Of a stretch of 64,000 bases of DNA, positions 26,602-44,112 are shown piece after piece (the stretch's first letter is position 1; every line of letters begins with the position of its first letter). Where the stretch lies: contig NZ_AP024678.1 in the NCBI RefSeq assembly GCF_025999095.1, forward strand, positions 1,643,527 to 1,707,526, read 5' to 3'. This stretch comes from Thermosynechococcus sp. (GTDB taxonomy: Bacteria > Cyanobacteriota > Cyanobacteriia > Thermosynechococcales > Thermosynechococcaceae). The notes under the pieces are model-generated. The model was given only the letters and a program-made list of their open reading frames with translations. It made no database searches and was not told where the DNA came from. The position numbers and the translations under genes are program-made.

Positions 26602-27763
26602 GCTATCGCAGTTCTCTTTTCCGAAAGATCGCCTCAGTGGTCGCGAGTTAATCGCGGTGGCTATCCTTGCTTTGATCCTGATTTTCGTGATGCCACCTCT
26701 GTTGCCGGGGTTTCGCTTGGATTTGCTGCACCGCTATCTGGCTCTGGCGATTGTGGCTTTGGGGATTGATCTGATTTGGGGGTTTACGGGGTTGCTTAGC
26801 CTTGGCCATGGCATTTTCTTTGCTTTGGGGGGGTACGCGATCGCCCTGCATTTGAAACTACAGGTACCCGCCACTGCTCCTAGTCCACTGCCGGACTTTA
26901 TGTCCCTCTACGGGGTCACGGAGTTGCCGTGGTTTTGGTATCCCTTCTATTCCTTTGCCTTTGCTGTCGCAGCAGTGGTGCTGATCCCAGCCCTATTGGC
27001 GGCACTCTTGGGGTACCTTGTCTTCCGCAACCGCATCCGAGGGGTCTATTTCTCTATCCTTACTCAGGCAGCCATCATCGTCTTTTTTAACTTCTTTAAT
27101 GGTCAGCAAAAACTTTTTAACGGCACCAATGGCCTAACGGATTTTCAAACCCTGCTGGGGTTCCCTGTGCGCAATGCCCAGACCCAGTATTGGTTCTATG
27201 TCATAACAGTAATTTTCTTGGCCTTGGCCTATCTTCTTTGCCGTTGTCTGACAATGGGACGCTTTGGCCGCCTACTGGTTGCTATTCGCGATGATGAAGT
27301 CCGCGTCCGTTTTTCGGGATACAATCCGACCAGTTATAAGGTACTCGTTTTTGCTATTTCCGCTGCCTTAGCAGGGATCGGTGGCGCCTTCTTTACCCTG
27401 CGCACAGGCATCATTTCACCACGGGCGATGGACATTGCCTTCTCGATTGAGATGGTGATCTGGGTGGCGGTTGGCGGCCGTGCCACCCTCATTGGAGCCG
27501 TGCTGGGGGCACTCTTGGTCAACTTTGCCCGCAGTCTGTTGAGTGAGCAGTTTGCCGATATTTGGCTCTTTTTCCAAGGGGCACTGTTTTTAATTGTGGT
27601 GTTGGCACTACCTACGGGAATTGTTGGCTGGCTGCGCACCGAAGCCCCCAACCTGATTACGAAACTCTTGGGGCGACCACAACCCGTGGCAACATATCCA
27701 GAGTTGGAGTTTGATCCTGAGGTGCAATATGAGCGTCAAGTTCTCGAACAGGAGGGCAAATAA
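26594..27763 (+). CDS. urtC: Urea ABC transporter permease UrtC
   Basis: LivM-type permease, 389 residues, with membrane segments through most of its length (IDLIWGFTGLLSLGHGIFFA; GIGGAFFTLRTGIISP; WVAVGGRATLIGAVLGA). The frame is open from 26537 within urtB, but the ATG at 26594 (MPKLSQFSFPKD) is the likely start and overlaps the urtB stop by 8 bases, suggesting coupled translation. Confidence 0.95.
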   Translation: MPKLSQFSFPKDRLSGRELIAVAILALILIFVMPPLLPGFRLDLLHRYLALAIVALGIDLIWGFTGLLSLGHGIFFALGGYAIALHLKLQVPATAPSPLPDFMSLYGVTELPWFWYPFYSFAFAVAAVVLIPALLAALLGYLVFRNRIRGVYFSILTQAAIIVFFNFFNGQQKLFNGTNGLTDFQTLLGFPVRNAQTQYWFYVITVIFLALAYLLCRCLTMGRFGRLLVAIRDDEVRVRFSGYNPTSYKVLVFAISAALAGIGGAFFTLRTGIISPRAMDIAFSIEMVIWVAVGGRATLIGAVLGALLVNFARSLLSEQFADIWLFFQGALFLIVVLALPTGIVGWLRTEAPNLITKLLGRPQPVATYPELEFDPEVQYERQVLEQEGK

Positions 27764-27768
27764 TTGCT

Positions 27769-28536
27769 GTGACACCTATTCTTGAAATTGAGGATCTCAC
27801 CGTTAGCTTTGATGGTTTCAATGCCCTAAATCATCTCTCGTTTCGGATGGAGGCGGGGGAACTACGGGTGATTATTGGCCCCAATGGTGCTGGTAAAACC
27901 ACGTTTCTCGATGTGATTACGGGCAAAGTCAAGCCGACACAGGGGCGAGTGCTCTTTAAGGGGCGCAATCTGCGTCGCTATAGCGAAGATCAAATAGCCC
28001 GTATGGGCATTGGTCGCAAGTTTCAAACTCCCCGCGTTTATCTCAACCTAACAGTGCAGGAAAATTTGGAGTTGGCAGTAGCCCGCCATAAGGGCGTCTT
28101 GGCAACGCTGTTTCAGCCACTGTCCCGCGAGGAGCGCGATCGCTTGCACACCTTGATTGAGACCATTGGTCTGCGGCCAAAGGCTAACTTTCCGGCAGGA
28201 CTCCTCTCCCATGGTGAAAAGCAGTGGCTAGAAATTGGCATGCTGGTAGCACAATCCCCCGATTTGCTATTGGTGGATGAACCGGTAGCGGGTCTCACGG
28301 ATGAGGAGACCCACCTAACGGGAGAGCTTCTAATAGCCCTGGCCGAAAGCCACTCCATTATTGTCATTGAGCACGATATGGAGTTTGTCCGCCAAATTGC
28401 CCGCACGGTTACGGTTCTCCATGAGGGCTCGGTACTTTGCGAAGGTTCTATTGAAACCGTACAAAATGATCCCCGCGTGATTGAAGTCTATTTAGGTGCT
28501 CCCCTCGAAGAATCTGACTTGGCACAACAACCATGA
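27769..28536 (+). CDS. urtD: Urea ABC transporter ATP-binding protein UrtD
   Basis: LivG-type ATPase, 255 residues. Walker A GPNGAGKTT (about residues 38-46), signature LSHGEKQWLEIG, Walker B LLLVDEPVAG and switch His in IVIEHDMEFV. It starts at GTG 27769, five bases after the urtC stop. The next gene overlaps by ATGA. Confidence 0.96.
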   Translation: MTPILEIEDLTVSFDGFNALNHLSFRMEAGELRVIIGPNGAGKTTFLDVITGKVKPTQGRVLFKGRNLRRYSEDQIARMGIGRKFQTPRVYLNLTVQENLELAVARHKGVLATLFQPLSREERDRLHTLIETIGLRPKANFPAGLLSHGEKQWLEIGMLVAQSPDLLLVDEPVAGLTDEETHLTGELLIALAESHSIIVIEHDMEFVRQIARTVTVLHEGSVLCEGSIETVQNDPRVIEVYLGAPLEESDLAQQP

Positions 28537-29285
28537 CCCGCGTTGATCATTACCCCCTAGCGAGGACAGCAGTGGATGCCGATTGGATGCTGCGCATTCG
28601 TGGCCTCAATGTCTATTACGGCGAAAGCCATATCCTGCGGGATATTGACCTGAGTGTGCCCGTTGGCAAAATGGTGTGCCTCATTGGCCGTAATGGCGTC
28701 GGCAAAACCACACTCCTGAAAACCATCATTGGCCTGATCAAGCCCCGCAGTGGCCAACTGGACTGTCAAGGAGAATCTCTCCTGCCGTTGCGTCCGGATC
28801 AGCGAGCCAAGCTGGGAATTGGCTATGTACCTCAAGGACGGGAAATTATTCCCCGGTTGACGGTGAAGGAGAACCTACTCCTTGGTTTGGAGGCGCGTCC
28901 CCGTCAGCCGGCAAAACAGGAGATTTCAGAGGAAATTTTTGAACTCTTTCCTATCCTGAAGAAAATGCTCCACCGCATGGGAGGAGATCTCAGCGGTGGG
29001 CAGCAGCAACAGTTGGCGATCGCCCGCGCCCTAATGGGAGAACCCAAACTGCTTCTACTGGATGAACCCACCGAAGGAATTCAACCCTCGATCATCCTTG
29101 AGATTGAAGCGGCAGTTCGTCGCATTATTGCCGCCCGAGGCATTTCTGTCCTCCTAGTGGAACAGCACCTCCACTTTGTCCGCGAGGCGGACTGGTACTA
29201 TGCAATGCAAAAGGGGGGCATTGTTGCCTCTGGCCCCACCAGCAATCTCAGTCAACAGGTGATTCAGCGGTTTCTCGCGGTCTAG
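28533..29285 (+). CDS. urtE: Urea ABC transporter ATP-binding protein UrtE
   Basis: LivF-type ATPase, 250 residues. Walker A GRNGVGKTT (about residues 52-60), signature LSGGQQQQLAIARAL, Walker B LLLLDEPTEG and HFVREAD near the end. ATG overlaps the urtD stop. Last gene of the NtcA-controlled operon; no urease genes are in the window. Confidence 0.96.
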   Translation: MTRVDHYPLARTAVDADWMLRIRGLNVYYGESHILRDIDLSVPVGKMVCLIGRNGVGKTTLLKTIIGLIKPRSGQLDCQGESLLPLRPDQRAKLGIGYVPQGREIIPRLTVKENLLLGLEARPRQPAKQEISEEIFELFPILKKMLHRMGGDLSGGQQQQLAIARALMGEPKLLLLDEPTEGIQPSIILEIEAAVRRIIAARGISVLLVEQHLHFVREADWYYAMQKGGIVASGPTSNLSQQVIQRFLAV

Positions 29286-29288
29286 CCT

Positions 29289-30620
29289 CTAGATCGGGCG
29301 ATCGCCCCCCTCCAAGGAGCTGGGTTGCTCCACCAGCGTTACCCGTCGGGGTTGTGCCAGTTGCCGTAGCACGGGTTGCAGATGCCCCAGTGTGTCGTTG
29401 AGGCGATCGAGAAGCAGTTGCAGATTCCCTGTATCGGCGAGGGCTTGCAGGGCTTGGTTGAGGGTTTCTAACAGTTGTAACCGCTGCTGCAGGGTGCGAT
29501 CGCTGGCGGCCAGGAGTCCAGCAATGTATTCGCTCTGTTGCCGCAGTTCTTGAGCAATGGCGGTCTGTTCCTGACTGACCTGCGCCAGGAGTTCCCCTTG
29601 GCTGTGCTGAAGCTGGGTCACAAGGCGCTCAAACTGCTCAATGGACTGTTGCTGCCGCGCCTCGAGCGTGGCCACAAATTGCTGCCGATCCCTGATCACA
29701 CTAAGGGCCAGTTGATTTAAGTTGTCCAAGAGTTTTTGCAGCTTTTCTTCTGTGGGCAACGCCGTGCAAATGGTTTCCTGAATCACTTGTTGGAGAGTGG
29801 CGCCATCCACCCCTGCGTTCGTAACGGGGAGGCGGGGCAGCAGTTGATCGTTAATGTAGGTGTCAATTTGCAGCAGCAATTTATTCTCCCAGCGTTCAAC
29901 CATCACCATTGGGATCATCGCCAGCACACTGAGGACTAAGGCTACGAGGGTAGTATCAAAGGCCACCGCTAGCCCCGTCGTCACCCCACCAATTCCCTCC
30001 TTGATCTGGTTCACGTCCTGAGCTGTCTCCAAAAAGCTGGAAAAGCCACTGACCGCTTGACTAATCCCCACCACCGTGCCAATAAAGCCCAACAGGGGAA
30101 TTGCCCACAGTAGAACCCGGGGAATCGTATAGGAGGCATCGGTAGCTGCTGCGGCACTGCTACTGTCTTCTGCGGCGGCTTCAACAGCAATCTCTCGCTG
30201 GCCACTACTGAGAAATGCCCCTAAAACACGAGCACAGCGATTGGGAAGAAGCGTCCGCCGTTGGGCAAGAGTTTGCTGCAATTGCAAAATATCCCGCATC
30301 GCAGTGAAGGGATAGTTGGCGGGGATCCAGATTTGACGCAGGCTGGGGGTCTGTTGAAACAGAGCGATCGCCTTCAAAATTGTAAACACCAAAACCGTCC
30401 ACGCAAAAAAGACAGCCACGGGTTGCGTCCAGCCGCGATTGAGGAGCAGTTGGCCAAGGTAGGTGCCCTGAAGGGGCAAAAAGAAAATGTAGAGGAGGAC
30501 CGTGGCAACGGCAGCGATCGCCAGCGCTAACCACAGCGGAACCGTGAGATCACGGCGGGGTACTGGTACTGGGGTCAGGGAAGGGACAGTTGTTGTCGAA
30601 ATGGGAGAAGCAGCTGTCAT
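29289..30620 (-). CDS. MotA/TolQ/ExbB-type proton channel family protein
   Basis: A 443-residue inner-membrane protein: Ala/Pro-rich N-terminus, membrane helices at about residues 25-45, 60-80, 165-190 and 210-235, with the MotA/ExbB core (PRVLLWAIPLLGFIGTVVGIS; GIGGVTTGLAVAFDTTLVAL). A long C-terminal coiled coil rich in Gln and Leu (about 290-420) follows. The frame stays open to 31130, overlapping the next gene, but the ATG at 30620 begins the recognisable protein. The ExbD/TolR partner is not in the window. Such channels energise outer-membrane transport or envelope work. Confidence 0.86.
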   Translation of the reverse strand: MTAASPISTTTVPSLTPVPVPRRDLTVPLWLALAIAAVATVLLYIFFLPLQGTYLGQLLLNRGWTQPVAVFFAWTVLVFTILKAIALFQQTPSLRQIWIPANYPFTAMRDILQLQQTLAQRRTLLPNRCARVLGAFLSSGQREIAVEAAAEDSSSAAAATDASYTIPRVLLWAIPLLGFIGTVVGISQAVSGFSSFLETAQDVNQIKEGIGGVTTGLAVAFDTTLVALVLSVLAMIPMVMVERWENKLLLQIDTYINDQLLPRLPVTNAGVDGATLQQVIQETICTALPTEEKLQKLLDNLNQLALSVIRDRQQFVATLEARQQQSIEQFERLVTQLQHSQGELLAQVSQEQTAIAQELRQQSEYIAGLLAASDRTLQQRLQLLETLNQALQALADTGNLQLLLDRLNDTLGHLQPVLRQLAQPRRVTLVEQPSSLEGGDRPI

Positions 30621-30667
30621 GACAATATTCAGGGCGCAAACATTTTTCAATCTATCGTGAAGGAGCC

Positions 30668-31609
30668 TCAGATTTTTGGAACAGCTGCGGCTCCCTGCTG
30701 CCACCGCCAAAAACCTGCCAAGAGACTGCCAATTAGGGAATGAACCACCCCCGAAATCGCGCAGGGTACTGCGGTGAGGGGATTTGCAAAGGCTTGCCGC
30801 GCCAACGCCACCCCGAGCCCAGAGTTTTGCATGCCCACCTCGATGGCGATTGTCCGACAGGTGCGCTCTGAATAGCCCACAGCTCGAGCAAGATAGTAGC
30901 CACCAAGAAAGCCCAAACTGTGGAGGGACACAATGGCTGCCAACAGTTGCAAACCATGACTGAGAATCGCCTTGGCACTTGCGGCAAACACACCACCACA
31001 GATGACACAAATACCCAAAACTGAAATCAAGGGAGAAATAGGGAGCATTTTTTTCACCAAGGTGGGGGCTTTGGTATTCAAAGCTAAGCCAACAAGAATG
31101 GGCAGCAATACCACTTGAACTGTGCCCCAAAATAGTTGCAGGGCGTTTACTTCAACGTATTGACCCGCCAGGAGCTTGGTTAGTAGGGGTGTTAATATAA
31201 TCGCTGCCAGCGTTGAGCAAAGGGTCATGACCACTGACAGCGCCACATGGGCGCGGGCAATAAACGTCACCACATTGGAGGCCGTTCCACCAGGGCAGCA
31301 AGCGACTAAAATTAGTCCTACAGCAAAGGGCGTGGGCAATTGATATAACTGTGCAACCAGCCATCCCGCCGTCGGCATAATCACGTACTGGCCAACAAAT
31401 CCGAGGGCAACCGTGCGAGGCATTAACCCCACGGCCTGGAACTCCTGCCAACTTAGGGTGATCCCCATCCCTAGCATGACAATCATCAGGATCCAGACAA
31501 TGAGATCGCTGTTGACCCACAAAAATAGGGGTGGATATACCAGCGCCACAATTGCCGTGAGCATTACCCAAAGCGGGAATAGGTTGGTCAACCATTCGAG
31601 GCGAGACAT
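30668..31609 (-). CDS. Bile acid:sodium symporter (BASS) family transporter
   Basis: A 313-residue transporter with about nine to ten membrane helices. BASS-type motifs include ILVACCPGGTASNVVTFIA (sodium-site region) and EVGMQNSGLGVALA. Relatives in cyanobacteria and plastids carry organic anions such as pyruvate, others bicarbonate; the substrate here is not assignable. The ATG at 31609 (MSRLEWLTNLFPL) is preferred to the in-frame start at 31666. Confidence 0.92.
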   Translation of the reverse strand: MSRLEWLTNLFPLWVMLTAIVALVYPPLFLWVNSDLIVWILMIVMLGMGITLSWQEFQAVGLMPRTVALGFVGQYVIMPTAGWLVAQLYQLPTPFAVGLILVACCPGGTASNVVTFIARAHVALSVVMTLCSTLAAIILTPLLTKLLAGQYVEVNALQLFWGTVQVVLLPILVGLALNTKAPTLVKKMLPISPLISVLGICVICGGVFAASAKAILSHGLQLLAAIVSLHSLGFLGGYYLARAVGYSERTCRTIAIEVGMQNSGLGVALARQAFANPLTAVPCAISGVVHSLIGSLLAGFWRWQQGAAAVPKI

Positions 31610-32058: not shown

Positions 32059-33204
32059 ATGACAGCAAGCACACCTACGTCAAGTTCAGTAGCACAAGTG
32101 GGCGACAAAGCATTGGCATTTCCAGCGCGGGTAATTCAGAAGGTGATTGGCGATCGCCTCTCCGGTCACTTAATATTTACCGATCCGCGGGACCCCTCCA
32201 TCGGCTGGAACCTGTATGTGGGCAATGGTCAACTGCATTACGCCAATAGCACTGTTGGCCATCAGGAACGCTTCAACTACCTGTGTCAACGCTATTGCCC
32301 TCAACTCAGCACCACACTTGCAACCGATGAAACGGAGTATCAGTATCTCTGTCGTCTTTGGCAACAGGGGCAATTGACCCTTCCCCAACTGCGTAAGCTA
32401 CTCTTTCTCTTTAGTCAAGAAGCGCTGGTTCATATCTTTGCCATGCCCCAAGCCGCGTTGCAGATGGAGCGGGTGGCGGGTCTTGATCACTTGGTTCTCT
32501 GTGTGCCGATCAAGGAAACTCTGAGTCAACGGCGGCAAGCCATTACCCAAGCAGTACAGGTGCGCACCTATTTGAACTCGCCGCTGCAACGACTGGTGCT
32601 AACCACAACCGAGGGAGTTCCCGCTGATCTGTGGCCAATGGACTATGGCCGCAATATTGCCGCTGCCTTGCCTCAACTCTTGGAGCAGACACCCGTACTC
32701 TATGAAGTGGCGACTCAGTTGCGCATGGAGGCGATCGCCACTGCTCAGTTACTGCAACCCGCCTTAGTCAATGGTTTGATTGCCCAGCATCCCTACACTA
32801 TCCCCACCAGTGATACTCGCCCCATCGTGGCTTGTATTGACGATAGCCGCACCATTCAGCGCAATGTCCGCCTCATTTTGGAAACCTGTGGTTACCGGGT
32901 GCTAGGCTTGATGCAACCAACCCATGCCCTAAGTGCCCTCAATGATACCAAGCCTGACTTAGTCTTGATGGATATCTCGATGCCAGACATGGATGGCTAT
33001 GAGCTATGCCGTCAACTGCGGCAAACAGAAGCCCTTAAGGATGTGCCAGTAGTCATGCTCACAGGGCGCGACGGGCTAGTGGATCGGATTCGAGCACGGA
33101 TGGCAGGGGCGACCGAGTATTTAACGAAACCCTTTACGCCACAGGAGTTACTATCGTTAGCGGAGCGATTCACTCAGACTGCGGCAATGGAGAGTCATTC
33201 ATGA
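32059..33204 (+). CDS. PatA-like response regulator: PATAN (DUF4388) domain plus receiver
   Basis: First gene of the second chemosensory operon (PixG/PilG position). The N-terminal 150 residues resemble the PATAN/DUF4388 domain (GDRLSGHLIFTDPRDPSIGW); the C-terminal receiver (about residues 255-375) has the DDS acidic pair, acceptor Asp in LVLMDISMPDMDG, Thr in VMLTGRDG and Lys in LTKPF. In cyanobacteria such proteins regulate pilus motors and phototaxis, interacting through PATAN. The ATG of the next gene overlaps its stop. Confidence 0.92.
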   Translation: MTASTPTSSSVAQVGDKALAFPARVIQKVIGDRLSGHLIFTDPRDPSIGWNLYVGNGQLHYANSTVGHQERFNYLCQRYCPQLSTTLATDETEYQYLCRLWQQGQLTLPQLRKLLFLFSQEALVHIFAMPQAALQMERVAGLDHLVLCVPIKETLSQRRQAITQAVQVRTYLNSPLQRLVLTTTEGVPADLWPMDYGRNIAAALPQLLEQTPVLYEVATQLRMEAIATAQLLQPALVNGLIAQHPYTIPTSDTRPIVACIDDSRTIQRNVRLILETCGYRVLGLMQPTHALSALNDTKPDLVLMDISMPDMDGYELCRQLRQTEALKDVPVVMLTGRDGLVDRIRARMAGATEYLTKPFTPQELLSLAERFTQTAAMESHS

Positions 33205-33578
33205 AGCAGGTGCTAGTCGTTGAGGATTCCCGCACAGAGCAAACCATGATTGTCTCAATTTTAGAGAAATTGGGACACCAGGCCCATGTGGCGGAAACAG
33301 CGGAAAAAGCCATGGAATGGTTGGCTACGCATCAGCCACCGGATTTGATTGTGCTCGATATTGTGATGCCAGGAGCCAATGGCTTTGAACTCTGCCGCGA
33401 AGTACGGGCAAATTCCCTCCTCAAGACGGTGCCGATTATCTTCTGCTCCTCTAAGGATCAGGACTTTGATCGTTTTTGGGCGTTGCGTCAGGGGGGAAAT
33501 GCCTACATCACGAAACCCTTTGAACCGCAAGATTTAATTGAAACCATTAACGAGTACTTACCTCCCTTGCCTCAATGA
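33201..33578 (+). CDS. CheY-like single-domain response regulator (PilH/PixH type)
   Basis: A 125-residue receiver with no output domain. Acidic pocket VVEDSRTEQ, phospho-acceptor Asp in LIVLDIVMPGANG, Ser in IIFCSSKDQD and Lys in YITKPFEPQ. It overlaps both neighbours by ATGA. In this operon type the second regulator is usually a phosphate sink or antagonist of the PatA-like one. Confidence 0.94.
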   Translation: MKQVLVVEDSRTEQTMIVSILEKLGHQAHVAETAEKAMEWLATHQPPDLIVLDIVMPGANGFELCREVRANSLLKTVPIIFCSSKDQDFDRFWALRQGGNAYITKPFEPQDLIETINEYLPPLPQ

Positions 33579-34072
33579 TGTCTGTGAGTGCCCCAGTCCT
33601 TCAGGAATACTTTCATGTGGAACTGCCCCAAGGGGTGAATGTAGCGATTCCCCTTGGCCAAACGGCGCAGGTTTTAAGCGTTGAGCCACGGGATATTTGT
33701 CTGGTGCCGGGGGTTTCGGCCGCTCTTTTGGGCATTAGTAACCACCGGGGGCGGTTATTGTGGATGCTTGACCTATTGAAGTTGCTGGGGGTGCAGTATG
33801 CTTGGGGGCGATCGCCCCACCAACGTTGGACGGCAGTGGTCATGCAAGATACTGATGGCTCGTCACCGCGTCAACTGGCGTGTTTGGTGAGTCAACTGCG
33901 GGGCATTATTCATGTGTCGCCAGAGCAGCAGCAGCCGGTGCCCCAGCGACTTCAAGGGCAGCTGCAGCAGTATTTGCAGGGTTTTGTGCGGTTGGATCGC
34001 CTGCCAATCTTACTATTGAATGTTGAAGCCGTTTTTCAAGCTGTTGCCCATTCAGCTGCGCCAGACCTATGA
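33575..34072 (+). CDS. CheW-like scaffold protein (PilI/PixI type)
   Basis: A 165-residue CheW-domain protein that would couple receptor to kinase. The domain runs over almost the whole length: [23 protein letters not shown], then [20 protein letters not shown] and [18 protein letters not shown] overlaps on both sides show tight translational coupling within the operon. Confidence 0.9.
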
Positions 34073-35628
34073 CCTCCCTTGCTAATTCCACCCCGCCGAC
34101 CTCATCCCTGAGCGATCGCTACTTCAATGCCATCCTCACTCAGGATATCCCGACCCTGCGCGCCCTCCTTGAGGAAGAACCCACTGATCATTTGGTACAG
34201 TTGACCCTAGCCACTGCCCTTGAACAGGCGGGTGATGTTGCTGCCGCCAAAGACCTTTATCGGGCGATCGCCGAAGCAGATCAGGGAATTTTTGGTCAAA
34301 GTGCCCGCCATGCCTTGGCACTACTGCAGACAAGCCCTGCGCCTCCCCCGCTCCCCCCACTGCCCAGTGCCCCTGTTGCCGCTACCCCCATTCCCCTAGG
34401 ACGGGGTCAAATCAAACAGTTGCGGCAGGGGCTGCACACCTTAGAAACATGGCTAGTGCAACTCCAGCAACAGGAGTGGCATAGCCCCTTGCCTGAGTTT
34501 AACGATCCTCAACTCGCCGCCATTGGCCAAGGCATTGCCGTCTTGGTCGCTCAGCTCCAGCAGCAGCAGGATGAGATTCAAGCCCTCGAAGCCCAACGTC
34601 AAGGGGAACTACAGCGGCAGCGCCAAGAACGGATGAAAATGCAGGAGGCAGTGATTAACCTATTGCTGGATATTGAAGGAGCCCAGCGGGGAGATCTCAC
34701 CGTACGCGCCAAGGTGGATGCAGGGGAAATGGGTTCCATTGCCGATGCTTTCAATGCCACAGTGCGTAGTTTGCGTCAAATTGTCGTCCAAGTCCAAGCT
34801 GCCGCCAACCAAGTCCAAACCGCTGCCCAAATCACCCAGGGGGCGATCGCCGGATTGGTTGCCGGGGCAACCCAGCAAGCCGCCGACATTGATCGCAGTG
34901 TGGAAGCGGTCGAAACAATGGCCGCCTCAGTGCAAGCAGTAGCCAAGTCTGCCCAAGAAGCAGCAGCGATCGCCGCAGAGGGGTTGACGGCAGCACAATT
35001 GGGGGATACAACTATGGACACCACCGTGGAGAGTATGGAGAATATCCGCCTCAGCGTGGCCGAGACCGCCAAGAAAATGAAACGCCTCGCTGAATCCTCC
35101 CAAGAAATCTCCAAAATCATCAACATCATCTCCAACATCTCTGAGAAAACCAACCTTTTGGCCTTTAATGCTTCGATTGAAGCTGCCCGCGCTGGGGAGC
35201 ACGGCCAAGGCTTCCGGGTGGTGGCCGATGAGGTGCGCCGCCTGGCCGAGCGAGTCACAGATTCAGCACGGGATATTGAGCAGCTAGTGACGGGGATTCA
35301 GCAGGAGACGGCTGAGGTGCTTCAGGAAATGGAAGTCAGTACGGCACAAGTGGTCAAGGGCACCCAGTTGGTGAGTCAAACCAAAGCAACATTACAGGGA
35401 CTCGCTCGCCTCAACCAACAAATTGATTCACGACTGCAAATGATTTCTGAGCGCACCGCCTTGCAAACATCCACTGCGGCAGACGTGATGGAGACGATGC
35501 AGGGAGTTGCCCAGATGGCACAAACAACAACGTCAGCCGCTGCTGCTGTGGTCGATGCCATGGACAGTCTAGTCGCCGTTGCCGCAGAACTGCAGGCCTC
35601 GGTATCGCGGTTCCGTGTGGATCCTTAG
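34069..35628 (+). CDS. Soluble methyl-accepting chemotaxis-like receptor (PilJ/PixJ type)
   Basis: A 519-residue receptor with no membrane segment. The N-terminal region looks like a tetratricopeptide-type helical unit ([23 protein letters not shown], about residues 40-90), then a Pro-rich spacer, a helical segment with HAMP character (about 200-240), and the signalling domain with hairpin tip [19 protein letters not shown] (about 362-380). No GAF or chromophore-binding domain is present, unlike PixJ photoreceptors. It likely senses a cytoplasmic cue or a partner protein. Confidence 0.9.
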
Positions 35629-35641
35629 AGATGGATAACCT

Positions 35642-38251
35642 ATGACCCTCGATGCCGCCGACCTGGATGCAATTACCCAAGAAGCACGCCATTGCTTCCT
35701 CTACGAGGATGCCCCGGAGTATCTACTGCTCCTCGAACAATGGGCAGAGCAAGTGGCCACCGATCCCGAGCGGCACTGTACGGCTGAGGATTACAACAGG
35801 CTGATGCGGGCAGCGCATTCCCTCAAAGGGGGGGCTGGGATTGCCCAACTCAGTGAGCTACAGGCCTTGAGCCATCGCCTAGAGGATGTTCTGGAAGCCC
35901 TCAAAGAGGGCCGCCTGGGCGATCGCCCCCGTGCCCATCATCTTCTGGTTCAAGGCATTGAGCAGGCCCAAGAACTCTTGGCCGCCGCCAAACAGAATCA
36001 TTCCTTAACACCAACGCCCCACTATCAAGCCCTTCTTGCAGCCCTCACGGAACTCCTCGGCGCCGTCTCAGCCACACCCTCGCCCTCCACTGCCGCTCCC
36101 CCCGATCTACGTACCGCCTTGACACAAACCCTTGAGGAGTCCCTGCAGATCCTAGAGGCGAGTGCCACGGATGCAGAGCGGGAGACGGCCTTGGCTCACC
36201 TGATTGCCACGGCCCACACCCTAGGGAAACAGTACGCCCTGCCTTGGTTGCAGCAACTGGCCGCCGAATTACCGAAGTTGGCAGCGGATTTGCCCCTTGG
36301 GGAATTAGTGCCCGCCATTGTCGCTGAGTGTCGTCAATTGCAGCAGGCAGAACTGGTCAAGTTACTGCCGCCTGAAGCGACCCCTACCCCGCCTGCGGCC
36401 ACAACTCCCCCCCAAGACAGCTATCTGCGCATTCCCGTTAGTCGGCTGGATCGCCTCGGTAACACTGTCAGCGAATTGCTCATTGGCCAAGAACGCCTCA
36501 CCCTCTATCAACAGCAGTTCTTGCGGGCCAATCGCGAACTTAAGCACCGCCTTGAGCAATTTCGCCCCATTCGCGATCAGGTACAGACTTTTTACGATCG
36601 CTTGGCCACCCCCCTGGGCGGTCGCGGTCGGCCAACGAATGGCCACAATGACTTTAACGGCCACAATGACTTTGATGCCCTGCAATTTGACCGCTACACA
36701 GAACTGCACACCGCCCTCCAGGATTTTCAAGAATTGCTGGTGCGGATTCAGGAGACAGGCGCCGATATTGATCTGCTCAACCGCGATCTCCAAGAAGCCC
36801 TTGATCTCAACCGCCAGCACTTAAATAGTCTCTACGCTGAACTGACGAATTCCCGCTTGCTGCCCTTTCGCCAACTGGCAGCAAAGTTTGTGACCGCTGT
36901 GCAAGCCTTAGGCGATCGCCACCATAAACCGGTTCAACTGGTGATCGAGGGGGGCGATACCCTTGTAGATCAAGTGATTTTGCAGCAACTCAAGGCCCCC
37001 CTGACCCATCTGGTGCGCAACGCCTTTGACCACGGTCTTGAGCCGCCCGAACAGCGGCAACAACTGGGCAAGTCCCCGCGGGGAACCATTTGGCTACGGG
37101 CGCAACTGCGGGGGAATGCCGTGGAAATTCAGGTGGCCGATGATGGTCGGGGAATTGATCTGCAACGGGTGAGTCAAAAAGCGGTGGAACTGCAGCTTTG
37201 CTCTGCCGAAAAAGTTCCTCACCTGAGCCGCGAGCAGATTTTGGAATTTCTCTTTGTACCGGGGTTTTCAACCGCCAAGCAGGTGAGTGATCTCTCTGGT
37301 CGGGGGGTAGGACTGGATGTGGTGCGTGAGCAAGTGCGGCGATTGCGGGGGCGTCTGCAGATTACCACTGAACCCCAGCAGGGAACGACCTTCAGCCTCA
37401 CCCTCCCCTTGACCCTGAGTCTGCTGCCCATGGTACTGTGTCAAGTCGGGGAGCTAACCTTGGCCATCCCAGATTTGAGTATCCGCGAAGTCATTGCCCT
37501 CAAGGAATACACAGATATTCGCCACCCCAGCCCCACCATTGATTGGCAAGGACAATCCATTCCCCTGTGCCCACTGCATCAATTGCTGCCCTATCAGCGT
37601 CCCCTGAGTGCGCCAACGCAGCCCCTTGGTGTGGGTGTGGTTGTGGATGTGGCTGGTCAGGCGGTGGCCTTGGCGGTGAACTATCTCATTGCCGAGCGGG
37701 AGTTAGTGGTCAAGCCCTTTGATCAAACGGTACCCGTGCCCCCCTACGTCATGGGTTGCACGGTTCTGGGAAGCGGGGAAGTGGTGCCGGTTCTGGCTCC
37801 CGATAATTTTACGGTGCTGCTGAGGCCAAGGGCGGTACCGGCCTCGCCGATCATGGCAAGGCCCCAGCAGCGCACCATTCCCCAAGTGCTCATTGTCGAT
37901 GACTCCATTACCGTGCGACGGCTCCTGGATCGTGTGCTGCGGCAGGCGGGCTACGATGTGGTGCAATGCCGCGATGGCAAGGAAGCCTTGGATTTCCTCC
38001 TTGGTCAAGGGGATCAAGTCTCCCTTGTGATCACAGATGTCGAGATGCCCCGCCTCGATGGCTATGGCTTGCTAGAGGCAATTCGTCTTTCGGCGCGTTT
38101 ACGCCATTTACCCGTTGCAATATTAACCTCCCGGGGGGGGGGATACCCACCGCCAAAAAGCCTTTCAACTGGGTGCCAATGGCTACATTACCAAGCCCTT
38201 TCAACCCCAAGGGTTGCTGCAAACGGTAACCCAACTGCTCGCTGGTCGTGA
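35642..38251 (+). CDS. CheA-type hybrid histidine kinase, receiver domain frameshifted at a G10 run
   Basis: Kinase of the second chemosensory operon. Hpt His59 (RAAHSLKGGAG), HATPase N box HLVRNAFDHG, G boxes VADDGRGID and SGRGVGLDVV, CheW-like domain, then a receiver with acceptor Asp in LVITDVEMPRLDG. After ILTSRGG the reading frame leaves the family pattern at a run of ten G (38133-38142) and ends in unrelated residues at 38251. With nine G the frame would continue as DTHRQKAFQLGANGYITKPF, restoring the conserved receiver Lys, and stop at 38279 (878 residues). The kinase core is intact either way. It could be a sequencing error, a real mutation, or a slippage site. Confidence 0.9.
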   Translation: MTLDAADLDAITQEARHCFLYEDAPEYLLLLEQWAEQVATDPERHCTAEDYNRLMRAAHSLKGGAGIAQLSELQALSHRLEDVLEALKEGRLGDRPRAHHLLVQGIEQAQELLAAAKQNHSLTPTPHYQALLAALTELLGAVSATPSPSTAAPPDLRTALTQTLEESLQILEASATDAERETALAHLIATAHTLGKQYALPWLQQLAAELPKLAADLPLGELVPAIVAECRQLQQAELVKLLPPEATPTPPAATTPPQDSYLRIPVSRLDRLGNTVSELLIGQERLTLYQQQFLRANRELKHRLEQFRPIRDQVQTFYDRLATPLGGRGRPTNGHNDFNGHNDFDALQFDRYTELHTALQDFQELLVRIQETGADIDLLNRDLQEALDLNRQHLNSLYAELTNSRLLPFRQLAAKFVTAVQALGDRHHKPVQLVIEGGDTLVDQVILQQLKAPLTHLVRNAFDHGLEPPEQRQQLGKSPRGTIWLRAQLRGNAVEIQVADDGRGIDLQRVSQKAVELQLCSAEKVPHLSREQILEFLFVPGFSTAKQVSDLSGRGVGLDVVREQVRRLRGRLQITTEPQQGTTFSLTLPLTLSLLPMVLCQVGELTLAIPDLSIREVIALKEYTDIRHPSPTIDWQGQSIPLCPLHQLLPYQRPLSAPTQPLGVGVVVDVAGQAVALAVNYLIAERELVVKPFDQTVPVPPYVMGCTVLGSGEVVPVLAPDNFTVLLRPRAVPASPIMARPQQRTIPQVLIVDDSITVRRLLDRVLRQAGYDVVQCRDGKEALDFLLGQGDQVSLVITDVEMPRLDGYGLLEAIRLSARLRHLPVAILTSRGGGYPPPKSLSTGCQWLHYQALSTPRVAANGNPTARWS
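38133..38142 (+). other. Run of ten G causing a frameshift
   Basis: Ten consecutive G within the receiver-coding part of the second CheA gene. Nine would keep the receiver in frame. The 46-codon continuation (38142-38279) lies in the shifted frame and encodes the missing half of the receiver including ITKPF. Confidence 0.9.
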
Positions 38252-38386
38252 TGCTGCTGTGGCGACTTTCAGCCACTAAAGCTATCAGAGTGCATTGCCG
38301 CGAAAATTTTTATGAAACATGGCGATCGCCAGATTGCGTGGACATCCTTGCTAGGATCGGGGTGACTTGCGCTGGAGAGAGCAACC

Positions 38387-41300
38387 ATGCCTGCCCAGGT
38401 GGAAGAAAAATCAATTGTGCCGACGGTCATTGTGGGAGTGGGTGGCACAGGCATCGAGGTGCTATCGCGGGTGCGGCGACTGGTGGAGGAAACCTACGGC
38501 AGCCTGAAACAGTTTCCTGTGATTAGCTTCCTTGCCATTGATACCGATCGCGACTACAAAGTAAGCAACCCCCTCGCCGCTGGCTCTCCCCTCAAGGACA
38601 ACGAAAAGCACTGGGCCAGTGTCAGTGGCAAAAATGTGCAGCAAATCATTCAAAACCTCGACAACTACCCCTGGATTGCCTCTTGGTTTCCCAAGGAACT
38701 GGAGCGCAACATTACTGCCCTAGAGGCAGGGGCAGGTCAAATCCGTGCCTGTGGTCGTTTTGCCTTCTTTTGCAACTACCATGCGATTCAACAAAAGTTC
38801 CAAGCGGCCAGCGATCGCGTCAAAGGTCACGAAAGTTTTATGCAAAGCCGCTACGGCCTCAGGGTCAACAATAGTAGCCTCAATGTCTTTGTTACAGGTT
38901 CCCTCTCTGGGGGTACGGGTAGCGGGATGCTCATTGACCTCGGCTATTGTGTCCGTCACTGGCTGAAGGGGCAGTCGAGTCCCCTGGTGACCGCAATTGT
39001 CCCTATGCCCAATGCCTTTGCTGCCATTAGTGTGGGCGATCGCGTCCTTGCCAATGGCTATGCCACCCTCATGGAACTCAGTTACTTTTCCGACTACCGC
39101 ACTGAGTACCTTGCCCAATTTAGCAGTAGCCTGGCTGATGAAGTGCGTTACAACTGCCCTCCCTTTGACTTTACCTACCTCGTGGGCACCAAAAATGGCG
39201 AGAGCGAATTCAAGCTCGATGAGATCCGCGAGATGATTGCTCAAAATATCTTTTTGGATCTCACCTCGGACTTTGCTCCCCACAAACGCTCTATTCGGGA
39301 CAACATTAAGGCGGCTTGGGCGTCTCAGGATGCCGGCGGGCGTGGCTACCCCAAAAATTTCATGGCCTTTGGCCTCGCTAGTATTGAAATTCCCATTGCC
39401 CAAATTCGCGCCTCCTTGACCTATCGCCTCTGTCAAGACTTTATTCACTGGTGGCTGAATGAATCGGTGCAATTGCCGCCACAACTGTTGGAGGTGACCC
39501 AAAGCCTCCTGAAGCCCATGAACTTGCTGGATATGGATTTGGTGCTGGCCTTGGCGGCAGCCGGCGATCGCCCCTATATGCAGGAAATCTCCCGCTGGGT
39601 CAACGATCTGCGCAATCAAATTAGCCGTGAAAACCTCCTTGAATGTACCCAACAGGGGTTAGGGGGTGTGATTGGTGCGGAAAGAGGCAAAATTTTGCAA
39701 TTTGTGCCCTGGCTAACTGAACAGGTGGACAATTACCGAGCCGCCCACTTGCGCGAACTAAGCCCCGATGAGCGCCTCCACGGTGACTTTTTCCAGCGCA
39801 TGTACGACAACCGCAATCAAATCATCCAGCAGGCTCGCCAAAGTCTTGAGGAGGAATTCTATCGCATTGTCGAAGATCGCAACCGCGGGCCGAAGTTTGC
39901 CCAGGCCTTTCTGCGGCAAATTCGCCAGATTTTTCTTAGTCAAAGGGAAAAGTACGACCGCGAGATCCAGAACACTTGGCAGCCCAACATCACCAATCGT
40001 CAGCGGCAATACGAAAATGCCCTCCAGGACATTAACCACTTCAGTACCCTGTTTGGCATCTCCAAGCAAGCAACAATGGAGGAATTTTGCCAGCAGGCCC
40101 TAGAAGGAATTGAGGGGAGTTTCAATGCCATTATTCAAGCCAAAGCGCGGGTGCTTGCCAAGGAGGTGATGGCCAAACTGGAGGAGTGGCTACAAGGGAT
40201 GGAGGCACGCCTTGCCAAGCTGCACCAGCGGCTCCTCAGCTTACGCGATGGCTTCAAGGCAATGGCCGACAGCCAAGCCGACAGTGCCGATGCCCTGCGC
40301 ATTAACGGTGTGAAGCTCTATGATCGCCAAGAACTCAACGGCCTCTATCAAGACCTCGTCGAGCGCTATGCCGGTGCCAATACAGGGGTAGAGTCCACAT
40401 TTACCATTGGCCTCAATCAACTCTGTACCACAACAGCGACAACGGTGTTGCAGGAGGCGAGTCCCCTGTGGAAGGAAACCCGCGCTGCCAATGAGGTGAT
40501 GCGTCTATTGGATGTGGCGCAACTGGCGGATGCCCAAGAAAGTGACCTGGCTGAGATTATCCAGGAAACGGTACGGCGCACCGTGCAAAATGCTCCGGAA
40601 GAAAGCCGCCTTGTGCGGGATCTCACCGCCGGCGATCGCCTGTTGCAGTTCTATCGCAACGACGAAGCCGAAATCCTCAGTGTCCTGCGCCTCGCCTACC
40701 AAAAGTCTAAGCCCCTGCTACTCCTCTCCCAGGCGGTGATGAGTGGGCGCGATGCCGGCTTTACCCCCTCGGTAAATACGAATATTGCCATTGTGGGGGG
40801 TGAAAATACCGCCGATTTGGCTGCCAAAAAACTCATTCCCCTCCTCAAGAACCTCGTCAAACCCAATGGCCAGAGCATTACCAGTGATGACATTAAGCCC
40901 TTGGGGGAGCGCGAGCGGCACCGCATTGTTTTTGTCCAAGAGATGGGGGGCTTTTCATTGCGCTGTATTGAGGGCATGCCTGAACTGCGCCAGTCCTATC
41001 AAGATTGGCGCGGCCAAATGATTACCGCCAAGCGTGCCCGCCTGCGGGGAGAAAACCGCGACCTGCCGATTCCCGTACATTTGCAAAAGGATCCCCCCTT
41101 CTGGGATGTGTTTCCGGAAAACCCGCGAATTCTCAACCTCGTGGTCACTGCCCGCGCCCTCGGTGTCCTGAAACAGGCGGAAAATCGTGCCACCCGCGAA
41201 GCCACAATCCGCTACACCCGCCATACGGCTATTGGCCTTGAAGATGTGGACATTGCCGCCAACTGGGAGGAGGTGACTCAAGTCCTAGAGGTGCTGGCCT

Positions 41301-41698
41301 GTCGCCCCGACTTAGAGGAAATCCAGCACCAAGTCACCACCATCCTCAAAGGAGCGGAAACGCCCCCGCAAAAGCAAGCCCTCTACGAGCATTTACTTCA
41401 TTACCTGAAGCAGCGCGAGGAGGAACTTCAGAAAGCGGGAGGACGCGACAGCCTTGAATACAAGCGGGAAGCGGCGATTCTGCAAGAGGTGATCCAAACC
41501 TATCAATTGGCTCAACGAACGTCAGCTCCTAGTCCGATGCCAACACCGCTGCCCCAACCCGAACCAACACCTGAAACCACTGCTTCAGCAAGTTCCTCGG
41601 GGTTAGAGCAACTGCAACAACTGATGGCCATGTATCAGCAGGGTCTGCTCTCAGAGGCGGAGTTCCAAGCTGCGAAGAAAAAACTGCTGGGGCTTTAG
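38387..41698 (+). CDS. Large tubulin/FtsZ-like GTPase-fold protein with C-terminal SHOCT domain
   Basis: A 1103-residue protein whose N-terminal third has the tubulin/FtsZ nucleotide fold: IVGVGGTGIEVLSRV (residues 15-29), FLAIDTDRDYK (about 48-58) and the tubulin signature SGGTGSGM (about 173-180). The centre (about 430-800) is long, helical and Gln/Glu-rich. A Pro-rich spacer leads to a SHOCT-like tail (LEQLQQLMAMYQQGLLSEAE). The size and layout resemble the Tubulin_2/FtsZl-2 group, proposed from genome comparison to act in membrane remodelling; no function is proven. It starts 108 bases after the chemosensory operon, on the same strand, behind GGAGAGAGC. It is not FtsZ itself, which is about 400 residues. 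Confidence 0.85.
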   Translation: MPAQVEEKSIVPTVIVGVGGTGIEVLSRVRRLVEETYGSLKQFPVISFLAIDTDRDYKVSNPLAAGSPLKDNEKHWASVSGKNVQQIIQNLDNYPWIASWFPKELERNITALEAGAGQIRACGRFAFFCNYHAIQQKFQAASDRVKGHESFMQSRYGLRVNNSSLNVFVTGSLSGGTGSGMLIDLGYCVRHWLKGQSSPLVTAIVPMPNAFAAISVGDRVLANGYATLMELSYFSDYRTEYLAQFSSSLADEVRYNCPPFDFTYLVGTKNGESEFKLDEIREMIAQNIFLDLTSDFAPHKRSIRDNIKAAWASQDAGGRGYPKNFMAFGLASIEIPIAQIRASLTYRLCQDFIHWWLNESVQLPPQLLEVTQSLLKPMNLLDMDLVLALAAAGDRPYMQEISRWVNDLRNQISRENLLECTQQGLGGVIGAERGKILQFVPWLTEQVDNYRAAHLRELSPDERLHGDFFQRMYDNRNQIIQQARQSLEEEFYRIVEDRNRGPKFAQAFLRQIRQIFLSQREKYDREIQNTWQPNITNRQRQYENALQDINHFSTLFGISKQATMEEFCQQALEGIEGSFNAIIQAKARVLAKEVMAKLEEWLQGMEARLAKLHQRLLSLRDGFKAMADSQADSADALRINGVKLYDRQELNGLYQDLVERYAGANTGVESTFTIGLNQLCTTTATTVLQEASPLWKETRAANEVMRLLDVAQLADAQESDLAEIIQETVRRTVQNAPEESRLVRDLTAGDRLLQFYRNDEAEILSVLRLAYQKSKPLLLLSQAVMSGRDAGFTPSVNTNIAIVGGENTADLAAKKLIPLLKNLVKPNGQSITSDDIKPLGERERHRIVFVQEMGGFSLRCIEGMPELRQSYQDWRGQMITAKRARLRGENRDLPIPVHLQKDPPFWDVFPENPRILNLVVTARALGVLKQAENRATREATIRYTRHTAIGLEDVDIAANWEEVTQVLEVLACRPDLEEIQHQVTTILKGAETPPQKQALYEHLLHYLKQREEELQKAGGRDSLEYKREAAILQEVIQTYQLAQRTSAPSPMPTPLPQPEPTPETTASASSSGLEQLQQLMAMYQQGLLSEAEFQAAKKKLLGL

Positions 41699-41774: not shown

Positions 41775-42248
41775 ATGTCTCCCTATCGTTCCAGCCTCCC
41801 TTGGTTCTATCGCTCGCTCCTTACCTGCAAAGGCCTGACCCTCATTGAACTGCTCGTCGTTGTCATTATTATCGCTATCTTGGGAGCGATCGCCCTCCCC
41901 TCGATGTTGAATCAGGCCATTAAAGCCCGTGAGTCCCAAGCCAAATCCAATATCGGTGCAGTTAACCGTGCCCAACAGGCCTACCGCTTAGCAAATCCAA
42001 CCTTCACCGACGACCTAGCAAGTTTACAAATCGGCTTTAGTGATACACCCGACTATGAGTATCAAATCAGCCATGCCGACAGTGACTATGCTCAATTCCA
42101 AGCCACCCCTGAGCGAGCAGAATTAAAGGCATTTACAGGTTGCACCTACGCTACGTATACAACATTGACCACAACCCAAATTTTAGAAGCTGCTCCCTCT
42201 GGTTCAAGCACAGCATCACCACCGGCCTGTCCCGATCCCACTCCCTGA
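41775..42248 (+). CDS. Type IV pilin-like protein
   Basis: A 157-residue prepilin. The class III signal is cut after Gly in CKG-LTLIELL; Glu at mature position 5 is present, but mature residue 1 is Leu instead of the usual Phe. A single hydrophobic helix (LLVVVIIIAILGAIALPSML) and a conserved RAQQAYRLANPTF motif follow, then a C-terminal globular part with two cysteines and a Ser/Pro-rich end. It closely resembles the pilin at 44680 through the first 75 mature residues. Its 3' end overlaps the convergent smtB gene by 33 bases. Confidence 0.9.
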   Translation: MSPYRSSLPWFYRSLLTCKGLTLIELLVVVIIIAILGAIALPSMLNQAIKARESQAKSNIGAVNRAQQAYRLANPTFTDDLASLQIGFSDTPDYEYQISHADSDYAQFQATPERAELKAFTGCTYATYTTLTTTQILEAAPSGSSTASPPACPDPTP

Positions 42249-42599
42249 AGTGTCTGATTCTTCTTCATCTAAATGTTCTGCCGCTGCCTTGTAAAGGGTG
42301 AGGACATGGTGATCTAGTAACTGATAAAAGATATGACGTCCTTGGCGGCGAAAACGCACCAGTCGCAGCGCCTTCAGCATCCGCAATTGGTGGGAGACAG
42401 CGGATTCGCTCATTTCTAGAGCCACGGCGATATCCCTGACACAAAACTCCCCCTGGGCCAGCAGGTCCACAATTCGCAATCGATTCGTGTCGGCCAGTAG
42501 ACCAAAAAACTGCGCCATCCGCTGGGCTTTTTCCGTAGAGAGCAAGCGATCGCTCACCTGCGCTAAAGCCTCTGGATGATGAGGATCAAGAGTATTCAT
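42216..42599 (-). CDS. smtB: Zinc-responsive ArsR/SmtB-family repressor
   Basis: A 127-residue winged-helix metal sensor that represses smtA until zinc binds. DNA-recognition helix is in ALEMSESAVSHQLRMLKAL. The C-terminal alpha5 zinc motif DxHx10HxxE is intact (DHHVLTLYKAAAEHLDE), and a cysteine sits in the alpha3 region (GEFCVRDIA). The frame is open to 42641, but the ATG at 42599 (MNTLDPHHPEAL) keeps the operator outside the coding region. Divergent to smtA across an smt-type operator. Confidence 0.93.
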   Translation of the reverse strand: MNTLDPHHPEALAQVSDRLLSTEKAQRMAQFFGLLADTNRLRIVDLLAQGEFCVRDIAVALEMSESAVSHQLRMLKALRLVRFRRQGRHIFYQLLDHHVLTLYKAAAEHLDEEESDTSGSGIGTGRW

Positions 42600-42634
42600 A
42601 TCTTCATCATAGGCGCTGGTTGGGCAATAACCAA

Positions 42635-42664
42635 TTGACATATGAACAGTTGTTCAGATATATT
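42635..42664 (+). promoter_or_regulatory. smtA promoter with SmtB operator
   Basis: TTGACA (42635-42640) and TATATT (42659-42664) are spaced by 18 bases. Within the spacer lies TGAACA-GT-TGTTCA (42643-42656), a perfect 6-2-6 core of the 12-2-12 element known from the Synechococcus smt operator. SmtB bound here would block RNA polymerase directly; zinc would release it. Confidence 0.88.
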
Positions 42665-42717
42665 GAAGTAGAGGTGGAAAACAACCTCACTAATCTTGGC
42701 CATTTGGAGGAAAAGCC

Positions 42718-42891
42718 ATGACGACCGTTACCCAAATGAAATGCGCCTGTCCCCACTGCCTGTGCATTGTCTCCCTCAGCGATGCAATCATGGTTGACGG
42801 CAAACCCTACTGCTCTGAAGTCTGTGCCAATGGCACCTGCAAAGAGAGTAACGGCTGTGGTCACACAGGTTGTGGCTGTGGCTCTGCTTAG
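42718..42891 (+). CDS. smtA: Bacterial metallothionein SmtA
   Basis: A 57-residue zinc-binding protein that sequesters excess Zn/Cd. Cysteines are at 9, 11, 14, 16, 32, 36, 41, 47, 52 and 54, with His13 and His49. This matches the Synechococcus SmtA ligand spacing, except that the usual His40 is replaced by Thr40-Cys41, giving ten cysteines. The C-terminus GCGHTGCGC is typical. The ATG at 42718 has a GGAGGAAAA ribosome site. Divergent from smtB and controlled by the operator between them. Confidence 0.96.
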   Translation: MTTVTQMKCACPHCLCIVSLSDAIMVDGKPYCSEVCANGTCKESNGCGHTGCGCGSA

Positions 42892-42999
42892 AAGTTACAA
42901 TCTGTAACAGTGGATAATGACGAGGCGATCGCCCCATCCACGCTATACAATCAAGAGGTGGAGATTGTCCTCGTCATTTCTTATTAGTTGCGATCCAGT

Positions 43000-43080
43000 G
43001 TGGCAGACCTCCCATCTATTTCCTTGATTACAGCCACCTATAACGCTGCCGACCACCTGTCAGACCTGATATGGACTTGA
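43000..43080 (+). pseudogene. Remnant of a family 2 glycosyltransferase N-terminus
   Basis: Twenty-six codons from a GTG read VADLPSISLITATYNAADHL and six more residues, then stop. SISLITATYNAADHL is the unmistakable first strand and nucleotide-sugar loop of GT-A (family 2) glycosyltransferases, normally 250 residues or more. Nothing downstream in any frame continues the domain before the next gene at 43084, so this is a deletion remnant. Confidence 0.72.
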
Positions 43081-43083
43081 TGA

Positions 43084-43503
43084 TTAAGGTTGTTGCAATC
43101 GCAGCATTTCGGCCTGGATACGTTGGCTAAAGGCGCCATCTTGCTGTGCTCGCAGTGTAATCGCATTGAATTGCTCTAGGGACATATTATATTTTCTCAG
43201 CACCTGCATTGCCTCCCGCCCATAGTTGGCACAAATGGTCTCCAATCCCCTGGGCATATTTTGGGGATTCATGCCAAAGCAAGAGTTGCGGGGCACTTGA
43301 CCTTGGAAAGCTGCCTGAGCTTGGCGATAGTATTTTTGGCGAATCGGTTCAATTTCGAGAACTACACGGGCATAGGTCGTGATCTCCCACGGAGCAATCA
43401 CATCTGTGCGCGGGGAAGTCTGAGCCAAGGAATAAGGTGAAGGCACAGGCACCGGCAGCAGACCGGCACTACACAGAGCAAGGGGCAACCACTTCCAGGA
43501 CAT
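43084..43503 (-). CDS. Exported DUF4168-like protein
   Basis: A 139-residue protein with an N-terminal signal peptide (MSWKWLPLALCSAGLLPVP, likely cut after SLAQ). The mature part is helical: YARVVLEIEPIRQKYYRQAQ, then LRKYNMSLEQFNAITLRAQQD, resembling the DUF4168 domain of cyanobacterial exported proteins. Two cysteines (NSCFGM, ETICANYG) may pair. The ATG at 43503 is chosen for the signal peptide; the open frame extends to 43623. Function unknown. Confidence 0.75.
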   Translation of the reverse strand: MSWKWLPLALCSAGLLPVPVPSPYSLAQTSPRTDVIAPWEITTYARVVLEIEPIRQKYYRQAQAAFQGQVPRNSCFGMNPQNMPRGLETICANYGREAMQVLRKYNMSLEQFNAITLRAQQDGAFSQRIQAEMLRLQQP

Positions 43504-43771
43504 TGACCACCACACACAACGCGTCCGACTACACTCTACTTGGAATCCCGCGAACTGCTTCAAGTTCCCCAACGCCGGCAAGCAGCAGCCATTAAAAACC
43601 GTTTTGGCCAAGATTGAAGGCACAGTAGGTAAATTTACTAGACTTTACAGAAAAGTTACATTCTTTGAAGTTTGCTCATCCAGCCCCTCCAGCAATCAAC
43701 CACTGCGGTATCCTAAATCTCGGTATTTCTCTCCAGACTGCCCTTATTGTCGTAGCTTAGGGGCTTCCTGA

Positions 43772-44071
<300 letters not shown>

Positions 44072-44112
44072 TTCCCTATTTCTGTGAAGCTGGTCTTAAA
44101 TACTTGACTGGG

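Follow-up and report, generated by a model that had tools for sequence, protein, structure and literature searches.

The tubulin-like gene and its surroundings

The window analysed here is a 64,000-nucleotide stretch of a Thermosynechococcus sp. genome (contig NZ_AP024678.1, positions 1,643,527 to 1,707,526 of the forward strand). It carries an open reading frame for a large tubulin-like protein, preceded by a chemosensory operon and followed by a pilin-like gene with Pilin_GH and N_methyl matches, all on the same strand, an arrangement already described in an earlier note on this DNA (Table 1). Farther upstream lie branched-chain amino acid/urea-type ABC transporter genes encoding two permeases and two ATPases (window 25444-29285) and, on the minus strand (29289-31130), a gene whose 613-residue product contains a MotA/TolQ/ExbB domain (residues 315-421) and matches ZorA weakly; the gene of a relative of this protein directly adjoins the tubulin gene in genome G044. 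On the other side, psaC and an ArsR-family regulator are located beside a metallothionein-like open reading frame between two pilin genes (window 42216-44072).

Table 1. Coordinates of the tubulin-like gene, its neighbours and its candidate partners. Positions are those of the window unless prefixed C1, and residues are those of the 1103-residue protein.
Feature	Position	Strand	Basis or remark
Tubulin_2/FtsZl1-family protein, 1103 aa, clade alpha	38387..41698	+	ATG start, open for 1103 codons
Tubulin_2 domain, residues 14-353	38426..39445	+	Pfam PF13809 and PDB fold matches
GVGGTG, T1-type nucleotide loop, residues 17-22	38435..38452	+	Sequence; four glycines invariant in 31 homologues
GGTGSG, T4-type tubulin signature, residues 175-180	38909..38926	+	Invariant or nearly so
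Long helical centre, approximately residues 467-629	39785..40273	+	DSSP on low-confidence model (pLDDT 35)
SHOCT-like tail, residues 1074-1101	41606..41689	+	Pfam SHOCT
Type IV pilin-like gene (Pilin_GH, N_methyl), relevance uncertain	41775..42248	+	Pfam; linkage in seven genomes
Chemosensory operon: PatA-type regulator, CheY, CheW, MCP, hybrid CheA	32059..38251	+	Judged a neighbour, not part of the system
Receptor in the window's genome	C1:2051604-2053208	-	Unlinked to tubulin gene
vWA membrane protein in the window's genome	C1:438743-439603	-	Unlinked to tubulin gene
Linked receptor loci: L072, L040, L075, L034, L131, L046, L050, L038, L051, L047, L041, L042, L049, L077, L078			

The tubulin-like frame matches the Pfam family Tubulin_2 (PF13809) at 377 bits (E=1.1e-112, cut-off 27) over model positions 1-355 of 356, and it is the sole Tubulin_2 gene of a complete 2.50 Mb genome that also carries a normal ftsZ. 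The tubulin/FtsZ-like assignment that the earlier note had made from the loops GVGGTG and GGTGSG is thereby confirmed, the full-length match being the HMM check that it had proposed. Residues G17, G19, G20, G22, S172, G175-G178 and G180 are invariant among 31 cyanobacterial homologues, and D52, N223, Y225 and E230 are invariant or nearly so. The SHOCT tail is likewise real, although at 26.6 bits it falls just below the Pfam cut-off of 27. Pfam Tubulin (PF00091) is matched weakly in 15 of the 31 homologues, and the T1 and T4 loops are shared with FtsZ, from which the protein nonetheless differs, as had been claimed: the comparison with the genome's own FtsZ profile is weak (E=0.0021, 13% probability), there is no FtsZ_C domain, and inspection by eye found no T7/NxD motif, such that no T7 catalytic loop is assigned.

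Structural models were computed from two-row alignments and are of low confidence, with a pLDDT of 35 for the full-length protein and 46.9 for a template-free model of residues 1-430 (approximately 60 over residues 11-200). All 50 PDB matches listed for the 1-430 model are nevertheless tubulin, CetZ or FtsZ structures or tubulin-containing complexes, and we therefore consider membership of the tubulin superfamily to be well supported. The top match is the haloarchaeal CetZ1 (4b46, E=1.1e-4), CetZ2 is also matched, and the alignments to CetZ and tubulins extend over about 290 columns. In contrast to this fold-level likeness, searches of PDB sequences with phmmer and a profile returned no homologue, and CetZ is much shorter, with neither the long helical extension nor the zinc-ribbon receptor and vWA partners described below. 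In the low-confidence model the C-terminal 700 residues are helical.

Relation to described FtsZ-like families

The earlier note had labelled the protein 'FtsZl-2/Tubulin_2', and the first half of that label does not hold. Makarova and Koonin named FtsZl1 in 2010 as a widespread family with a coiled-coil centre, and FtsZl2 as a proteobacterial group lacking the coiled coil and carrying an alpha/beta C-terminal region of about 300 residues (PMC2875224); in a later paper, their FtsZ-like group and Pfam Tubulin_2 are treated as the same (PMC9871819). A Tubulin_2 protein with a helical centre is thus an FtsZl1, and the window protein comes from a cyanobacterium and is modelled, at low confidence, with a helical C-terminal 700 residues. 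A nucleotide domain at the N-terminus and a vWA partner are shared with FtsZl1, the low-confidence model suggests a similar layout of long helical centre and mostly helical C-terminus, and the protein is predicted from its sequence to be a nucleotide-binding member of the tubulin superfamily. The 2010 alignment held a member from Thermosynechococcus elongatus BP-1, and a reviewer remarked on the PilA-like tll1019 next to that gene (PMC2875224); the literature thus already covers both gene and pilin neighbour, and the window gene, judging only from gene order and numbering, would correspond to tll1020. That the group is largely uncharacterised, as the earlier note had stated, agrees with our literature search, which returned no biochemical study of any FtsZl1 protein.

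Phylogenetic reconstruction places the cyanobacterial Tubulin_2 proteins in separate clades alpha, beta, gamma and delta, together with a distant type of about 500 residues. Alpha and beta are sister clades (branch support 99 and 99, joined at 97) with 30-32% identity over their full length. Their C-terminal tails are small and exchangeable, a feature that sets them apart from the FtsZl1 proteins described in 2010: SHOCT in the window protein, a zinc ribbon replacing SHOCT in alpha locus L074, and an acidic helical tail in beta. Gamma, present as a second Tubulin_2 copy in three genomes of the window's genus, has the operon order vWA-type, tubulin, MotA/ZorA-like, OmpA-like, in which the MotA/ZorA-like call comes from sequence inspection and a weak OmpA match; delta tubulin genes have a vWA neighbour.

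We note that in gamma loci L031-L033, L052, L056-L059 and L065-L076 the tubulin gene lies beside ZorA/MotA-like and OmpA/ZorB-like genes, which are likely to form an ion-driven motor pair. The gamma tubulin gene looks interrupted by repeated insertion-like open reading frames in L055 and split into two frames in L031. The viral contigs searched contained one relative, a 1133-residue Tubulin_2 protein with a SHOCT-like tail at 4881-8282 of an IMG/VR contig (L109) that is possibly host sequence.

Motility-related data are available for one cyanobacterial Tubulin_2 protein, Sll0445 of Synechocystis: sll0445-0447 mutants are impaired in phototaxis, and the protein associates with Slr2015 and Slr2018 (PMC9880817). 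Two scans of the genome contigs with the mutant primers gave no Synechocystis match, and the sll0446 mutant primer led, with two mismatches, to a Synechocystis relative (G218). The operon of this relative encodes a 495-residue tubulin-like protein, matched at 20 bits only and located on a very long branch of the tree, and a 1076-residue actin-like protein that matches FtsA weakly, in agreement with the published description of Sll0445 and Sll0446 (PMC9880817). Sll0445 therefore appears, by way of the G218 locus rather than the 6803 sequence, to be a distant paralogue of about 500 residues, and the phototaxis phenotype and pilus association most likely concern that paralogue. Judged by G218, it differs from the 1103-residue window protein in its length (about 495 residues), its actin-like and coiled-coil partners and its very distant branch. 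The sll0445-0447 evidence was accordingly set aside for the window gene because it comes from a protein of a different clade.

The chemosensory operon and the pilin gene

The tubulin gene had been reported to follow the chemosensory operon by 108 bases. This distance fits an unshifted cheA frame, because relative to loci L060 and L129 there is one extra base within a run of G at approximately 38114-38122, in the receiver domain; the actual frame ends at 38251, leaving a gap of 135 bases, and the frameshift (window 38110-38279) truncates the receiver domain, which covers 79 of the 111 positions of its model. The extra base may reflect either a sequencing error or slippage, which are indistinguishable here. 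The gap contains no promoter-like or terminator-like site, which says little in this organism. In a computational study, tll1021, tll1024 and tll1025 are listed as having putative sites for the phosphate regulator SphR (PMC1906773); by their numbering these would be chemosensory genes beside the tubulin gene.

Conservation of the neighbourhood, the check that the earlier note had proposed, was found for the chemosensory genes in a single genus only. Six genomes of that genus (G000, G147, G030, G102, G080 and G140) have the operon immediately before the tubulin gene; in three others (G092, G133 and G058) its MCP is encoded at places unrelated to the tubulin gene. Genome G044 has no close counterpart of the operon and retains the tubulin gene at 94% identity, with a flanking gene (c29) beginning 194 bases away. 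In the alpha and beta loci of other genera, a chemosensory operon never adjoins the tubulin gene. The adjacency looks like a lineage-specific neighbourhood rather than a constraint, and a functional link drawn from it is not supported.

The pilin half of the proposed neighbourhood fared somewhat better, recurring, if weakly, in three genomic settings. A pilin gene follows the tubulin gene in seven genomes of the window's genus; in G133 the tubulin gene is located at another site, where four minor-pilin-like genes are found no more than about 4 kb away; and in G089, which belongs to another family, genes for a pilin and a glycosyltransferase follow at a distance of about 4 kb. The 17 beta and 18 gamma loci contained no pilin motif. 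Given how densely pilin loci occur in these genomes, the Poisson chance of at least two pilin cases among the ten other alpha positions is approximately 0.016, a small, post hoc statistic that uses a 10-kb distance and hand-counted pilin clusters. The pilin link is suggestive and remains weakly alive.

A putative zinc-ribbon receptor and a vWA protein as recurrent gene partners

The partner that recurs in the alpha and beta clades is a membrane protein in which a zinc ribbon at the N-terminus is followed by one hydrophobic membrane helix and then by a periplasmic binding domain that we take to be extracytoplasmic. This domain is either Peripla_BP_6 or PBP_like_2, two unrelated Pfam families that stand behind the same zinc-ribbon-plus-helix module, which is therefore the constant part of the receptor. 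(The binding domain family of the alpha receptor is also used by branched-chain amino acid/urea-type ABC transporters.) In 15 of 34 alpha and beta loci, carrying eight family labels, the receptor and tubulin genes share a strand and are adjacent or one gene apart. The receptor gene precedes the tubulin gene in four alpha loci and follows it in the remaining linked loci.

Across 242 Cyanobacteriia, and among the matches listed, the receptor is present in 39 of the 42 genomes with an alpha or beta tubulin versus 3 of the 200 without; counted by genus, the figures are 16 of 18 versus 2 of 102. The Fisher probability of 7e-38 ignores shared ancestry, and the tubulin-bearing species fall mostly in few genera. 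Binding domains of the periplasmic type abound in these genomes, and a receptor was counted only if its match extended into the zinc ribbon, to model position 9 or lower, a criterion fixed after the first loci had been seen; the tally was made by hand, with the fragmented tubulin of G202 counted as alpha. The exceptions, again among the matches listed, are three genomes with the tubulin and no receptor detected (G017, G106 and G083) and three with the receptor and no alpha or beta tubulin (G168, G235 and G209), of which G168 has both partners and no tubulin gene detected in an assembly that is 90% complete in 80 contigs.

Alpha tubulin genes have an additional partner gene, which encodes a membrane protein whose vWA-like domain was assigned from the sequence and lacks a Pfam match. 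This gene lies between those of the receptor and the tubulin-like protein in two loci of family f20 (L040 and L075) and immediately precedes the tubulin gene in L132. The protein was found in all eight of the f1 genomes tested that have an alpha gene or an alpha receptor, and was not found in two genomes of the same family (G112 and G154), in three beta genomes or in the alpha genome G162.

The alpha and beta clades thus show a conserved association of receptor and tubulin genes, and alpha shows one with the vWA gene. The receptor of the window's genome has cysteines C15, C42 and C45, one membrane helix and slightly more basic residues before the helix. Since the receptor and vWA genes are unlinked to the tubulin gene in the window's genus, we infer the partnership there from relatives. 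The pairing of the receptor with alpha and beta FtsZl1 proteins is new here; the 2010 study did not treat a zinc-ribbon/periplasmic-binding membrane protein as a conserved partner (PMC2875224).

Discussion

We give about an even chance to the reading that the FtsZl1-type protein works with the unlinked receptor and vWA membrane proteins and not with the chemosensory operon next door. In such a system a small ligand would bind the periplasmic-binding domain of the receptor outside the membrane, and its cytoplasmic zinc-ribbon head would recruit or switch the tubulin-like protein on the cytoplasmic face. The latter would respond by nucleotide-dependent assembly or a conformational change, with its long helical centre and small C-terminal tail serving as docking parts, and the assembly may organise a surface function, possibly one that contains pilins. 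We infer the membrane orientation, physical interaction, signalling direction, nucleotide-driven assembly and output of this system. The variety of tails is consistent with docking parts that vary on an unchanging core, and the zinc ribbon at the C-terminus of the alpha protein of L074 counts in favour of coupling to the receptor. A more specific version, in which interchangeable sensor domains on the zinc-ribbon/transmembrane module control FtsZl1 assembly at the inner membrane in a ligand-gated manner, is put forward tentatively.

The setting of the gene invites a different reading, that of the earlier note, in which the protein is a cytoskeletal part of the neighbouring chemosensory/pilus system that places or polarises type IV pili. 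With the operon directly upstream, the pilin directly downstream and the pilin link recurring at the G133 and G089 positions, this has some appeal, but an operon that is absent or unlinked in genomes that keep the tubulin gene and that is nowhere adjacent in the alpha and beta loci of other genera, together with the weakness of the pilin statistic, makes it unlikely in our estimation. A role as the counterpart of Sll0445, acting in phototaxis with pilus proteins and photosystems, appears very improbable: the Tubulin_2 domain common to both and the Synechocystis mutant and association data (PMC9880817) speak for it, but the G218 locus encodes the short, weakly matching type with an actin-like neighbour, and that actin-like protein had no match in the window's genome at E<=0.01 in a search run without a positive control.

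FtsZl1 proteins have also been proposed to act in a membrane-remodelling or vesicle machine, since vWA and membrane proteins recur with their genes (PMC2875224), and the gamma and delta gene orders reported above are in keeping with that proposal. In alpha and beta the recurring partner is instead a protein of the ligand-binding kind, which is nearer to the role in transport or signalling that the reviewer Jekely suggested as an alternative (PMC2875224), and no remodelling protein recurs in the alpha and beta loci; we regard this explanation as rather improbable for them. A further alternative is a scaffold that binds nucleotide but forms no filaments. The invariant nucleotide loops would suit such a scaffold, as would the missing T7/NxD motif; T6-H7 was not found in FtsZl1, and a non-polymerising FtsZl1 was allowed for by the authors (PMC2875224). 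Since filaments are said to form in all characterised members of the superfamily (PMC2875224) and the low-confidence model matches the fold of CetZ and tubulins, we hold a scaffold to be possible, if somewhat doubtful.

The protein is thus of a known kind, and what opens its function to testing is its set of partners. The analysis also carries a warning, as both the chemosensory neighbourhood and the Sll0445 phenotype are tempting shortcuts for assigning a function to this gene. The constant receptor partner offers in their place a testable hypothesis as to what binds outside the cell and whether that binding switches a tubulin-family protein inside, and, if the ligand-gated reading is true, extracellular nutrient sensing would be wired directly to a bacterial tubulin-family polymer.
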